Shown in pieces: positions 6,139-11,351 of a stretch of DNA of 64,000 bases. The DNA comes from Bacillota bacterium. GTDB lineage: Bacteria; Bacillota; Clostridia; Peptostreptococcales; Anaerovoracaceae. The notes beneath the pieces are model-generated. The model did no database searches. It had not been told where the DNA came from and worked only from the letters and a program-made list of their open reading frames with translations. The stretch's first letter is position 1; each line of letters starts with the position of its first letter. Made by a program: the position numbers and the translations under genes. The DNA is taken from contig JAUNDC010000008.1 of assembly GCA_030526355.1 (NCBI GenBank), positions 1 through 64,000 of the forward strand, written 5' to 3'.

Positions 6139-8781
6139 TTATGGCAGATACCCTCTCGGGTTGACTGCCGATCCGTTGACATGAATCTCGAAATGGCAGT
6201 GCGGTCCTGTACTTCGTCCTGTATTGCCTGACTCTGCAATGTGCTGTCCCTGGTATACCTTATCGCCTACGCTTACCAGAAGCTGGCTGTTATGTGCGTA
6301 ATAGCTTTCCATGCCGTTCTGGTGATCTATTACTACCAGATATCCGTACGATCCGCTGTAGCCTGCTTTTGTTACAGTACCTCCGTCAGCAGCGCGCACA
6401 TCGCTTCCTACAGGGCAGCCTAGGTCAATACCTGCATGGAGACGCCCCCATCTCTGACCGTATTCTGAGGTTACGGTATATCCACCTGCCAGAGGCCAGA
6501 TGTATTTGCCCGAACCGACTGTCGGCGGTCTTTCCTTGGTTCCCACCAGAATTATCTTTGTCACCGGCTCCTTGGTAACTGTTGTCACCAGATTGGTCTC
6601 TTCTATTCTTTCACCATTGACCGATACTATTCTGGCTGTGATTTCACGTTCTCCGTCCTTACCTTTTTGCTTTACTTCGGTATCACCCTCATATATGGTA
6701 TCATCTTTTTTCTTTTCTACTGTGTATTCTATTTTTTCATCGTAAGTTACAAGCTCTGTAATCTTCGCTGTTATGATAGGGGCATTCTGTTTTATTACCA
6801 GAGTGCTTCCCACCTCAAGCTTTTTAGGATCCACGTTCTGGTTATCCTTGAGGATATCCTTTTCACTCATTCCATAAAGCTTGGCAATGTCGGCCAGTGT
6901 CTCACCTGCTATAACCTTGTGGAGAGTTTCCTTCCTTCCGCTTGTGCAGAGCTTGTCAACCATTTCATCCTTTGTAGCTATATCCTGCAGATCTGTGTTG
7001 CTCTGCTGCACCTTTACCTTTTCAATAAATACAGCTTCCTCTATTTCGGAGCCTTCCATGCCTGTAGAATATCTGTCCTTGATCTCCTGCAGCACCTCTG
7101 CAGCTGTTTCCTTGCTTTCTACAGCTCCTACCTTCTTGCCGTTAACATATATACCATATGCCTTGACATTGAGATCACCCATATATGTAAGGCGTTTAAG
7201 CACCTCCTCTGATGAGTCTATTTTAACATCTCCCAGTGCTGAAACACGCTCGAAAGAAATATCGTCACGAGCATCTATTACTACACTCATGTCTATTTCT
7301 TCGGTAAGTGCTCCCTGAACCAGATCAGTGATTTCAAGGACATCAGCCTTTGATTTTACCAGACCCAGCGCCTTGCCGTTATATGAATATTCATAAGCAG
7401 TACAATAATTGAAAACTCCTGCTGTTCCTACAGCTGCCAGAAGTACGATGGTGAACACCGTCAGCAGCACAACCTTATGTCTCTCGCAGAAATTCTTGAA
7501 AGCACGACTTTTCCTGCCGATAAAGCTTTTCTCATACCGCTCCAGTTTCTTCTTTGTCAGCATATCGGCAATTGCTCTTGCTTCCTCTGTGCGCCTTTCT
7601 CTCTCGTCCTTAAGAGTATTTCTTTCTTCTTCTGTTCTGGCGTTTTTTTCTTCCTTAGTCGCTAATCCCAGCAGGTCTCTCCATGAAAAGCGTGCAACCT
7701 TTTTAAGCTTTGTCTGTATCTGGGTGTTATGGACATTGACAACTCCACCGCCCAGCTCAGCCTCTGCTATACGCTTTGCCTTCTCAAATTTTTCGCGTTC
7801 CATCTCTTCACGCTTAAGGCGGCGTGCACGTTCTTTTTCCTTATGGCGCAGTTCCTTTTCTTCTCTTTTTTTCCTGGCTTTTTCTTCTTTTTTTATTTTC
7901 TCGATTCTGGCCTTCTGCTCTTTTATCTCTTTTTCGGCTCTGGCCTTCTCAGCTTTTTTAAGGCGGACATTTTTCTGCTGTTCCAGAAGTGCATTAAGGT
8001 GCTGCTGCTCTTCCTGCAGCTGTTCCTGCTGCTGTGTCATCTTCTCCTGATGCACCTCCGCAAGCTTTTCTGTGTTCTTCTCCGTCAGCTCTGACATGCG
8101 GTCAAGGATTCTGCCCTGCTGTGCCTGTGCTTTGAGAAGCTCCTGCTTTGTCTTTTCCAGTGACTCTGAAGTATCCTCTGAAGATTTTTCTTCGAAGAAC
8201 TCTGCCATCTCCTCTGCTGAAGCTGTATGACTCATTTCTGCTTTTTTGGCAAGCAGCTCACTCTCCATATATTCCAGTGCTTTTTTTCGGCTAATTTCCT
8301 TCGCCTTCTTATCGGCTTCTACAGCTTCAAGTCTTTTCCTCTCGGCTTCCGCTGCCGCCAGAGCAGCCTGTTTCTCAGCCTCCTGTATCTTCTTCTGCTC
8401 TTCCTTGAGAGCAAGCTCCTTCTGTCTGTTCTCTTCTCTTTCCAGTCTTGCCTTTTCGGCATCCTTTCTTGCTCTGTCTATGATTGCCTGCTTAGCGGCA
8501 ACGACCTCCTCAGTCTCCTCCAGATACATTCTTCGGCCTTCATAGCTTCCTTCTTCGTCTGCAGTAGCTGTATCAGCTTCAGTCTCCTTCAGATATGGAT
8601 CCTCCACGGATTTGAGTGATTCAACACTTTTTCTCAGCTCCATGATTTCCTGATACACTCTTTTGGCATCCTCATCCTCGGCGATGAACTCTTCTCTGCT
8701 CATGGTCTGCCTGGTCACTGGCGGTTTTTCGCCGGTTTTATTGTCAGTCTGATTTTTTCCTTCGTTATCTCTCCAAAACAT
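6139..8781 (-). CDS. M23 peptidoglycan endopeptidase with LysM, G5 and a long cytoplasmic coiled coil
   Basis: A membrane-anchored cell wall hydrolase of about 880 residues. Residues 1-430 are almost all charged and Ala/Gln-rich heptad-like sequence (Lys/Glu/Arg), predicted as a long cytoplasmic coiled coil. One transmembrane helix follows near 437-458, then a linker, a LysM-like repeat (about 617-661), a G5-like domain (about 665-745) and a C-terminal M23 domain. The M23 domain carries the zinc ligands HAGIDLG and HCHFEIH. AGGAGA lies 9 bases before ATG 8781 and only 3 before ATG 8787, so 8781 is preferred. The gene overlaps dnaD by about 67 bases. The cytoplasmic half is far longer than is usual for this family. 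Confidence 0.9.
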   Translation of the reverse strand: MFWRDNEGKNQTDNKTGEKPPVTRQTMSREEFIAEDEDAKRVYQEIMELRKSVESLKSVEDPYLKETEADTATADEEGSYEGRRMYLEETEEVVAAKQAIIDRARKDAEKARLEREENRQKELALKEEQKKIQEAEKQAALAAAEAERKRLEAVEADKKAKEISRKKALEYMESELLAKKAEMSHTASAEEMAEFFEEKSSEDTSESLEKTKQELLKAQAQQGRILDRMSELTEKNTEKLAEVHQEKMTQQQEQLQEEQQHLNALLEQQKNVRLKKAEKARAEKEIKEQKARIEKIKKEEKARKKREEKELRHKEKERARRLKREEMEREKFEKAKRIAEAELGGGVVNVHNTQIQTKLKKVARFSWRDLLGLATKEEKNARTEEERNTLKDERERRTEEARAIADMLTKKKLERYEKSFIGRKSRAFKNFCERHKVVLLTVFTIVLLAAVGTAGVFNYCTAYEYSYNGKALGLVKSKADVLEITDLVQGALTEEIDMSVVIDARDDISFERVSALGDVKIDSSEEVLKRLTYMGDLNVKAYGIYVNGKKVGAVESKETAAEVLQEIKDRYSTGMEGSEIEEAVFIEKVKVQQSNTDLQDIATKDEMVDKLCTSGRKETLHKVIAGETLADIAKLYGMSEKDILKDNQNVDPKKLEVGSTLVIKQNAPIITAKITELVTYDEKIEYTVEKKKDDTIYEGDTEVKQKGKDGEREITARIVSVNGERIEETNLVTTVTKEPVTKIILVGTKERPPTVGSGKYIWPLAGGYTVTSEYGQRWGRLHAGIDLGCPVGSDVRAADGGTVTKAGYSGSYGYLVVIDHQNGMESYYAHNSQLLVSVGDKVYQGQHIAESGNTGRSTGPHCHFEIHVNGSAVNPRGYLP

Positions 8782-10001
8782 TGACATCTTTCTCCTGTTT
8801 CAAGCATACCTGTATCCTTGCATTTCGGACATTTATAATGTATATCCATGTAATCCAGCTCAAATCCGTTATCGGTAAGCAGGAATGCCTTTTCGGTATT
8901 CAGCGCATCCATTTTCGCTTTTAACTCTTCCATAGCGGCCTTGCGGTCCACCCTGTCGGAAATAATTATCTTTGAGATTTCAGCGCCCTGCGCATTTATC
9001 CTGTCCTCAATTTCCTTTATTCGCGGCACTGCATCAAACACCTCCCGGCGTCTTGCTTCAGCCTCTTCTTCCTCCTGCAGCCGCAGCGCCTCGTAGTATT
9101 TCATTATCTCTCCGGTCGTCAGCTCCCTGCTGCCGTCTCCGGAGCCTGATTTACCGTTCCTGTTTTCTTCATACCAGTTCACCAGTATCTTATTGACATA
9201 ATTTATATTAGGGTTTGATATTCCGGATGTTCTGCTGCATGCAGCCAGCACTTTTTCAATGGAAAATCCCATAGTGTCGAACCAGCTGTCCATGATTTTT
9301 CTTTCTTCCTCCGTAGCGTTTCTGGCAAATCCCAGTGCCTGAAACACTCTTTTGTAAAGATATTGCTTCTTTTCAAATTCACTGAGGTACTTTTCCACGG
9401 CAATCACATCCCGAAGCCCTTCAGCCGCCCAGCCCTTGATGACGGCTTCTATATATTTGATGTTCTTTTTATTTTTCTGCATGCAGTAGGAGTAGCCGTA
9501 CGCAATTACCTCCGGAGTAGCCTGAAAATCATCTATCCACGAAACGATTTCACCCATTTCTGCAGCACTCAGAACTCTTCCCGTAATCTGCTCTATAGCA
9601 CTGAACATATCGCGTATTTCCTTGTCGGCCATAAAGGAATGCAGGTTCTGTCCAGGCGAAAAGCCTTTTTTGTTTTCCTTTTCGCCGTAAAGCTGTTCCT
9701 TAAGTACTACAAACTCCACACTGTAATCAAATTTGTCTTCGGGAGAATCCTTTATTTTTCTTATTACTCCCATTCTCTCCCAGTAGGTCCAGGCCTTCAG
9801 CACATCCTCGATATCCATATTCAGGTGCCTTGCAATGTCTTCATTGGTGAGCTCGCTGTCAAGCTCACAGTACATCAGAGCAAAGAGATACACCTTGACA
9901 AAGTCTCCGGGTGCCGAAACCATATATTCATTTATAAACATATTTTCAACGCCGGTATCCAGCAGAAAATAGTCCTTGATTTTTTCTTTTCTGAAACCCA
10001 T
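8715..10001 (-). CDS. DnaD-domain replication protein with a C-terminal helicase-loader-type zinc ribbon
   Basis: DnaD proteins act in primosome assembly at oriC. The 428 residues comprise an N-terminal winged-helix region (1-90), two DnaD/DnaB_2 repeats (about 120-195 and 200-285), then a charged helix. The end is a segment with the look of the N-terminal domain of clostridial DnaC/DnaI helicase loaders (EVFDAVPRIKEIEDRI, LLTDNGFELDYMD, CPKCKDTG...CQCF). The protein stops about 16 residues after the zinc ribbon, so the loader AAA+ ATPase is absent. GGAGG precedes the ATG. It directly follows dnaB. The final bases overlap the M23 gene and contain that gene's ribosome-binding site. Confidence 0.88.
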   Translation of the reverse strand: MGFRKEKIKDYFLLDTGVENMFINEYMVSAPGDFVKVYLFALMYCELDSELTNEDIARHLNMDIEDVLKAWTYWERMGVIRKIKDSPEDKFDYSVEFVVLKEQLYGEKENKKGFSPGQNLHSFMADKEIRDMFSAIEQITGRVLSAAEMGEIVSWIDDFQATPEVIAYGYSYCMQKNKKNIKYIEAVIKGWAAEGLRDVIAVEKYLSEFEKKQYLYKRVFQALGFARNATEEERKIMDSWFDTMGFSIEKVLAACSRTSGISNPNINYVNKILVNWYEENRNGKSGSGDGSRELTTGEIMKYYEALRLQEEEEAEARRREVFDAVPRIKEIEDRINAQGAEISKIIISDRVDRKAAMEELKAKMDALNTEKAFLLTDNGFELDYMDIHYKCPKCKDTGMLETGERCQCFGEITKEKIRLTIKPAKNRQ

Positions 10002-10013
10002 GGATCCTCCGTA

Positions 10014-11351
10014 TTAAAATCCCGGTATATTATTGGTTCCTATGCTGTCCACGAATTTAGTCAACTTGTCCAGCCATGTGATTTTGACGGTGCCTGTCGG
10101 ACCGCTTCTCTGCTTAGCTATTATTACCTCACACTCTCCCGGAACCTCTGTGTCCTCATTGTAGTAATCATCTCTGTACAGGAAAATAACTATATCGGCA
10201 TCCTGTTCTATGGAGCCCGACTCTCTAAGGTCGGAAAGCATAGGTCTGTGGTCGGTTCTCGTTTCCGGTGCTCTGGAAAGCTGCGACAGCACAATAACAG
10301 GGCAGTCCAGCTCTCTTGCCAGAAGCTTGAGGTTTCTCGATATTACCGAAATCTCCTGCGTTCTTGAGTCTGCCTTGCCTTCAGGCGTCATCAGCTGCAG
10401 ATAGTCTATTACAACCAGATCCAGGCCTTCCTCTGCCTTGAGTCTCCTGCACTTACTCTTCATTTCCATTATGTTGATGCCTGCCGTGTCGTCAATATGT
10501 ATATTGGCCTTTGACAGCACATCAAGGGCGATATTGATATCGTCCCAGTCTCTTCTCTCAAGTCTGCCGGTCTTGAGACTCTGCATATCAACCTTTGATT
10601 CCATTGACAGCAGTCTCTGCCCCAGCTGTTCCTTTGACATTTCCATGGAAAAAATCATTACTGATGCTCCGCCCTTTACTGCTGCATTTAAAGACAGCGA
10701 GAGTGCAAAGGCCGTTTTTCCCATTGCAGGTCTTGCCGCCAGGATTATCAGATCTGATTTCTGCAGACCTGATGTTTTCTCATCCAGATATTTAAATCCT
10801 GTCGTTACTCCTGTCAGGCCTCCATCCAGCTGCGAGGCCTTGTCTATTATTTCTATATTGGTAAGAAGTACATCCTTCAGATGGGTGTACTGTCCCTTTT
10901 GTCTTGCCTGTGATATTTCAAATATGCCGCTTTCGGCATAATCCAGCATCTGATTGGCGTCCATGCCGTCTTCATAGCCTTTGGTCACAATATCATCCGC
11001 TGTGCTTATAAGTCTCCTGACGGCTGCCTTCTCTGCTACGATTTTACCGTACTCCATAGCATTTGATGTAGTCGGTGTTCCAGAAGACAGAGATGCGATA
11101 TATGCTCTGCCGCCTACCATATTGAGACTGTTTCTTCTTTTGAGCTCTTCCGCAACTGTCAGTGCGTCTACAGGAGCATTTTTCCTGTGGAGCTCCAACA
11201 TCGCCTTGAAAATCTCCTTGTGATTTTCATCATAAAAATCTTCGGCTTTCACCACTTCCACTACATCAAATAGCGCATCCTTGGAAAGCAGTGCTGCGCC
11301 CAGAACAGATTTTTCCGCTTCAATACTGTGCGGAGGGATTCTTCCTTCCAT
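10014..11351 (-). CDS. dnaB: Replicative DNA helicase DnaB (DnaC in Bacillus)
   Basis: Hexameric 5'-3' helicase that unwinds DNA ahead of the fork. The 445 residues have the usual N-terminal helical domain (opening IPPHSIEAEKSVLGA) and a RecA-like motor with Walker A ARPAMGKTAFA (near residue 205). Walker B is VVIDYLQLM and the arginine finger region is QLSRAPETRTDHRP. It lies between rplI and dnaD. The placement next to dnaD fits a replication initiation module. No intein or frameshift is visible. Confidence 0.97.
   Translation of the reverse strand: MEGRIPPHSIEAEKSVLGAALLSKDALFDVVEVVKAEDFYDENHKEIFKAMLELHRKNAPVDALTVAEELKRRNSLNMVGGRAYIASLSSGTPTTSNAMEYGKIVAEKAAVRRLISTADDIVTKGYEDGMDANQMLDYAESGIFEISQARQKGQYTHLKDVLLTNIEIIDKASQLDGGLTGVTTGFKYLDEKTSGLQKSDLIILAARPAMGKTAFALSLSLNAAVKGGASVMIFSMEMSKEQLGQRLLSMESKVDMQSLKTGRLERRDWDDINIALDVLSKANIHIDDTAGINIMEMKSKCRRLKAEEGLDLVVIDYLQLMTPEGKADSRTQEISVISRNLKLLARELDCPVIVLSQLSRAPETRTDHRPMLSDLRESGSIEQDADIVIFLYRDDYYNEDTEVPGECEVIIAKQRSGPTGTVKITWLDKLTKFVDSIGTNNIPGF

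Follow-up and report, generated by a model that had tools for sequence, protein, structure and literature searches.

A DnaD protein fused to the zinc domain of DnaC/DnaI loaders, a candidate ATPase-free helicase loader in Anaerovoracaceae and other Clostridia

At the origin, DnaA recruits DnaD, which binds single-stranded DNA there (PMC13326638), and loaders of the DnaC/DnaI type contact the replicative helicase through their N-terminus (PMC3791466). What the ATPase of such a loader is for has been a long-standing question, as it might open the helicase ring, release it or merely hold it inactive. In C. difficile, loaders with mutated Walker A or Walker B motifs still supported helicase activity and the helicase was ring-maker-like, and the authors concluded that the helicase is delivered without a need for ATP binding or hydrolysis by the loader (PMC5204125). 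A precedent for loading without an ATPase is DciA (PMC9912922). A survey from 2016 described domesticated dnaC/I genes in Clostridia and found only 49 species that lack both dnaC/I and dciA (PMC5109545).

We analysed a stretch of 64,000 nucleotides (the window; contig JAUNDC010000008.1 of assembly GCA_030526355.1) from a member of the Anaerovoracaceae, for which an earlier note had described a DnaD with two repeats fused to the N-terminal zinc domain of a helicase loader, the AAA+ motor being absent. As that note had stated, the gene is a direct neighbour of dnaB; the two are on the same strand with 12 bp between them. The locus has the following features.

8715-10001, minus strand: dnaD-HBD fusion gene, one open reading frame encoding 428 aa
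9153-10001, minus strand: DnaD part (residues 1-283), which contains the motif YxxxIxxxW (YVNKILVNW) besides its two DnaB_2 domains
8769-9113, minus strand: helicase-binding zinc domain (HBD; residues 297-411), a homologue of the clostridial DnaC/DnaI N-terminus
8775-8831, minus strand: zinc ribbon CxxCxDTG...G..CxC (residues 391-409)
10014-11351, minus strand: dnaB, the replicative helicase gene; 12 bp separate it from the fusion gene downstream
6139-8787, minus strand: LysM-G5-M23 peptidase gene, which shares 73 nt with the fusion gene at the latter's 3' end and serves as a locus marker in relatives

Profile searches bore out the described architecture. PF07261 (DnaB_2/DnaD) matched two stretches of the protein (E 2.1e-31, 107.8 bits against a cut-off of 22), and TIGR01446 scored 81.1 bits against a cut-off of 24.95. 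The N-terminal 120 residues, on which no Pfam model and only weak helix-turn-helix matches fall, align with the stand-alone DnaD proteins of the order, and the DnaD part as a whole is homologous to stand-alone DnaD in ten families of the order. Residues 297-411 correspond to positions 7-120 of NF005304/PRK06835 (E 1.8e-28, 99.6 bits), a 330-position model of clostridial DnaC-type loaders that has a cut-off of 215 bits and in which positions 130-330 are the AAA+ domain with its Walker A and B motifs. The loader-type motifs that had been named (EVFDAVPRIKEIEDRI, NGFELDY and CPKCKDTG...CQCF) are all present, and the distance from the zinc ribbon to the end of the protein, previously given as 16 residues, is 20 when counted from the last cysteine.

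The AAA+ half of NF005304 (positions 130-330) was unmatched; the protein ends after the zinc ribbon and its score stays below the 215-bit cut-off. When the locus was scanned with HMMs in all six frames and without filters, no remnant of AAA+ turned up here or in fusion-carrying relatives, and a hidden AAA+ frame is excluded by the M23 frame, which overlaps the fusion gene's 3' end by 73 nt. Because the defining AAA+ feature is missing, the fusion protein falls outside the DnaC/I loader family, although it probably works in its place. The first 73 nt of the M23 frame lie within the dnaD-HBD gene (window positions 8715-8787), an AGGAG-like ribosome-binding site precedes the M23 start, and the post-zinc tail encoded in this overlap is less conserved.

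The full fusion protein was matched in all 150 Anaerovoracaceae (f1) genomes sampled, which represent 55 of 55 genera and include single-contig genomes. Almost every match is a single open frame of about 400-510 aa; the exceptions seen are fragments at contig ends, for example in G006 and G165, and a frame break in G343. Bacilliculturomica massiliensis and Anaerovorax sp. IOR16 (genomes G331 and G310) are among the carriers that have a name. In a survey of 296 genomes of the order, Peptostreptococcales, no genome of the Anaerovoracaceae or of the sister family f9, which carries the fusion and has no resident loader, reached the loader cut-off. In the same survey, families f2-f8 and f10-f12 had a full separate loader with few gaps. 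The earlier note had described dnaD and an AAA+ loader as tandem genes in relatives, and this is what we found in these ten families, where the two genes are adjacent and in some cases only about 14 bp apart or overlapping by a few bases. The DnaD proteins of these families do not have the C-terminal HBD, so that it is no ordinary part of DnaD in the order.

A tree of DnaD plus HBD (46 rows, 431 columns) placed all 27 fused proteins, 25 from the Anaerovoracaceae and two from f9, in one clade with support of 100/100, which indicates that fusion and motor loss occurred once in this group, in the common ancestor of Anaerovoracaceae and f9. The event proposed in the earlier note is thus upheld by comparative genomics, whereas its placement in the present lineage is not. 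In most of the separate-loader families examined, dnaD and the loader lie between the M23 gene and dnaB and are convergent with dnaB, and at the syntenic site fusion carriers have lost the AAA+ gene found behind dnaD in relatives. In f9 the fusion gene retains the ancestral orientation, and in the Anaerovoracaceae it is inverted into the gdpP-rplI-dnaB direction (L251, L252 and L248). The fusion and the loss of the AAA+ domain therefore came before the inversion.

We then looked across the class, where 240 of 293 sampled genomes scored above the loader cut-off. Inspection of the remainder revealed DnaD-HBD fusions without AAA+ in f42 (416-450 aa), f68 (560-603 aa) and two f15 genomes (609-613 aa). 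The f15 proteins have a weaker HBD score and about 40 additional residues beyond the zinc ribbon, and both f15 members have small genomes.

L206:3007-4359(-), L210, L207:1949-3670(+) and L212-L216: DnaD-HBD fusions without AAA+ in f42, f68 and f15

For the loader AAA+ domain, f42 genome G376 and f68 genome G518 gave no match other than DnaA-length frames and weak P-loop matches. On the class-level tree the fused proteins require three changes; a single clade of all fused proteins was rejected (AU p 1.6e-84), as was a grouping of Anaerovoracaceae and f9 with f42 (p 2.8e-6). The fusion has more than one origin, and the exact number is less sure because of long branches and the f15 alignment. Family f45 was rejected as a further case, its weak scores belonging to diverged, near-full-length loaders, and single genomes of f18, f27 and f28 without a loader match are probably gaps, as relatives have the loader. 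One f68 genome (G580, L226:1780-2799(+)) encodes a second protein, 339 aa long and likewise lacking AAA+, in which the same zinc HBD is joined to DUF6291 (phage family phrog_15768).

We also searched for relatives of the HBD in phages. There was none in IMG/VR, and tblastn gave nine matches, all of them unverified faecal scaffolds. All six that we inspected carry bacterial dnaD next to loader sequence, the loader being complete in most, and since this resembles chromosomal contamination we rejected them as phage relatives.

L240-L245 (GenBank MT835471, MT838569, MT836344, MT837632, MT835878 and MT837496): unverified 'Bacteriophage sp.' faecal scaffolds with bacterial dnaD and loader, probably contamination of the phage collection

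From these comparisons we propose, with a probability of roughly 0.6, that the gene product is a single-chain, ATPase-free helicase recruiter or loader that would replace the DnaD plus DnaC/I pair of related Clostridia. The DnaD part would bind DnaA and the opened origin DNA and self-assemble, and the C-terminal HBD, to judge from its homology to the loader N-terminus, would still bind DnaB and grip the replicative helicase. Oligomers of DnaD could thereby display several HBDs near the melted single-stranded origin DNA and promote the assembly of a ring-maker DnaB around it. The helicase itself would be the only source of ATP use, and its release or activation may be handed to single-stranded DNA and primase; joining the HBD to DnaD would thus have kept the delivery function and dropped the lock. 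Such ATPase-free mounting is consistent with the Walker-mutant data from C. difficile (PMC5204125), and the same change having occurred separately in other Clostridia suggests that the motor is dispensable for the start of replication. We give even odds to a wider reading, in which DnaD-HBD proteins form a class of bacterial helicase loaders that arose repeatedly: at least three times, separately, Clostridia would have shed the AAA+ motor of DnaC/I while retaining on DnaD the part that grips the helicase. Loading by the DnaC/I route would then proceed without a loader ATPase, drawing its energy from ATP binding by the helicase itself and from DNA.

It is conceivable, if unlikely, that DnaD-HBD is a mere tether to the origin, with ring opening or assembly left either to the helicase, which would load itself in the way proposed for H. 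pylori, or to the AAA+ module of DnaA. DnaA is indeed the main loader-like AAA+ protein left, at low scores, and loading in C. difficile has been likened to that of the self-loading H. pylori helicase (PMC5204125). This explanation differs from the loader proposal solely in whether DnaD-HBD acts on the ring, and the two are hard to tell apart.

An explanation that we regard as quite improbable is that a diverged or unrelated loader elsewhere took over and that the fused HBD serves a different purpose, for instance in regulation. The earlier note had allowed that the motor might be encoded elsewhere. The genome is 99.08% complete, and the absence of a loader from it is based on profile searches, in which IstB_IS21 (PF01695, the DnaC AAA+ family), NF005304 and A1, a custom profile made from the AAA+ half of the order's loaders, yielded no second complete DnaC/DnaI and no other candidate. 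IstB_IS21 matched two frames, one of 466 aa in the window that is typical of DnaA and another that reads as PhoH. A1 had no match in this genome or in 12 of the 149 other genomes of the family, and its best score elsewhere in the family was 104 bits, compared with 153-295 bits for true loaders of the order (pairwise comparison). The A1 matches in the family were DnaA-type, transposon-type or prophage proteins only; those in the single-contig genomes G212, G210, G096 and G279 were weak, and the listed cases had the frame lengths of DnaA-like or transposon-helper proteins.

DnaC-like genes do occur in some genomes, and the stronger A1 matches were mostly such proteins of 283-300 aa, scattered over a minority of the family's genomes (L136-L158, several beside phage DnaD-like proteins). 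Those that we checked match phage families phrog_50/3277, adjoin phage DnaD-like genes and have no HBD, and on these grounds we assigned them to prophages and ruled them out as the resident loader. DciA (PF05258, DUF721) was found in none of 61 relatives and scored above the cut-off in none of 16 further fused-type and single-contig genomes, while the control was positive in 7 of 14 genomes. A loader from a family invisible to sequence searches such as these, with no relation to AAA+ or DciA, could exist.

Purifying selection on the HBD is strong. All of 29 fused sequences share the four cysteines and the DTG of the zinc ribbon. The dN/dS of the HBD was about 0.016-0.12, similar to that of DnaD, and that of the linker 0.3-0.4, values that are approximate because dS often approaches saturation. 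Among comparisons in which dS was usable, the three closest gave NG86 estimates of 0.016, 0.048 and 0.080 for the HBD against 0.032, 0.048 and 0.048 for DnaD, and 0.32 and 0.39 for the linker in the two of them in which it could be estimated. This constraint, the invariant cysteines, the absence of an AAA+ remnant and an architecture identical across 55 genera, single-contig genomes included, make it very improbable that the HBD is merely vestigial or that the truncation arose as an artefact of assembly or sequencing. All that the 150 genomes offer in favour of this are the few fragments at contig ends and the single broken frame.

AlphaFold2 modelled the HBD with a mean pLDDT of 91 as three long helices followed by the C-terminal zinc ribbon; the model of the full-length fusion is poorly determined overall (pTM 0.37). 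We found no sequence relative of the HBD in the PDB and no convincing fold match, the best Foldseek hit having an E of 1.1 and the NMR structure of the DnaI N-terminus not being among the matches. Coiled-coil matches from VIA-align (Z about 8) were to unrelated proteins and within the background for helical bundles. We rejected co-evolution of DnaB at its LH-DH loader-binding module: the difference between fused and separate-loader lineages is largest there, yet splits among separate-loader lineages give the same ratio (2.27 against 2.31), which identifies the divergence as ordinary fast evolution.

We found no published report of a DnaD-HBD fusion in the open-access papers searched. On the purpose of the loader ATPase, evolution has in effect carried out a domain-deletion experiment in this family of gut and rumen bacteria, with its 55 or more genera, and separately in other Clostridia: strong selection maintained the HBD, and the ATPase was lost. 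The prediction is that a DnaD-tethered HBD would be sufficient, and these proteins may serve as minimal loaders for reconstitution. Their carriers add a documented class to the few bacteria that lack both DnaC/I and DciA.

Among known systems, clostridial DnaC/DnaI (NF005304/PRK06835; C. difficile CD3654) has the same helical zinc domain with CxxCxDTG...CxC, homologous over its full length, and its locus likewise lies near dnaB and an M23 gene; the fusion protein differs in lacking the AAA+ domain (about 200 aa) and in carrying the zinc domain on the C-terminus of DnaD. With the clostridial DnaD-like protein (C. difficile CD3653; DDBH1-DDBH2-DDBH2) it has two DnaB_2/DDBH2 domains, YxxxIxxxW and the gene neighbourhood in common, but stand-alone DnaD proteins have no zinc HBD and partner a separate AAA+ loader. 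The DnaD-DnaB-DnaI system of Bacillus subtilis follows a similar recruitment chain from DnaA through DnaD and loader to helicase, with three proteins and an AAA+ motor where one motorless protein would stand here. DciA and phage lambda P are also loaders that bind the bacterial replicative helicase, and DciA likewise has no ATPase domain; unlike DciA, whose PF05258 was undetected here, the fused domain derives from an AAA+ loader itself.
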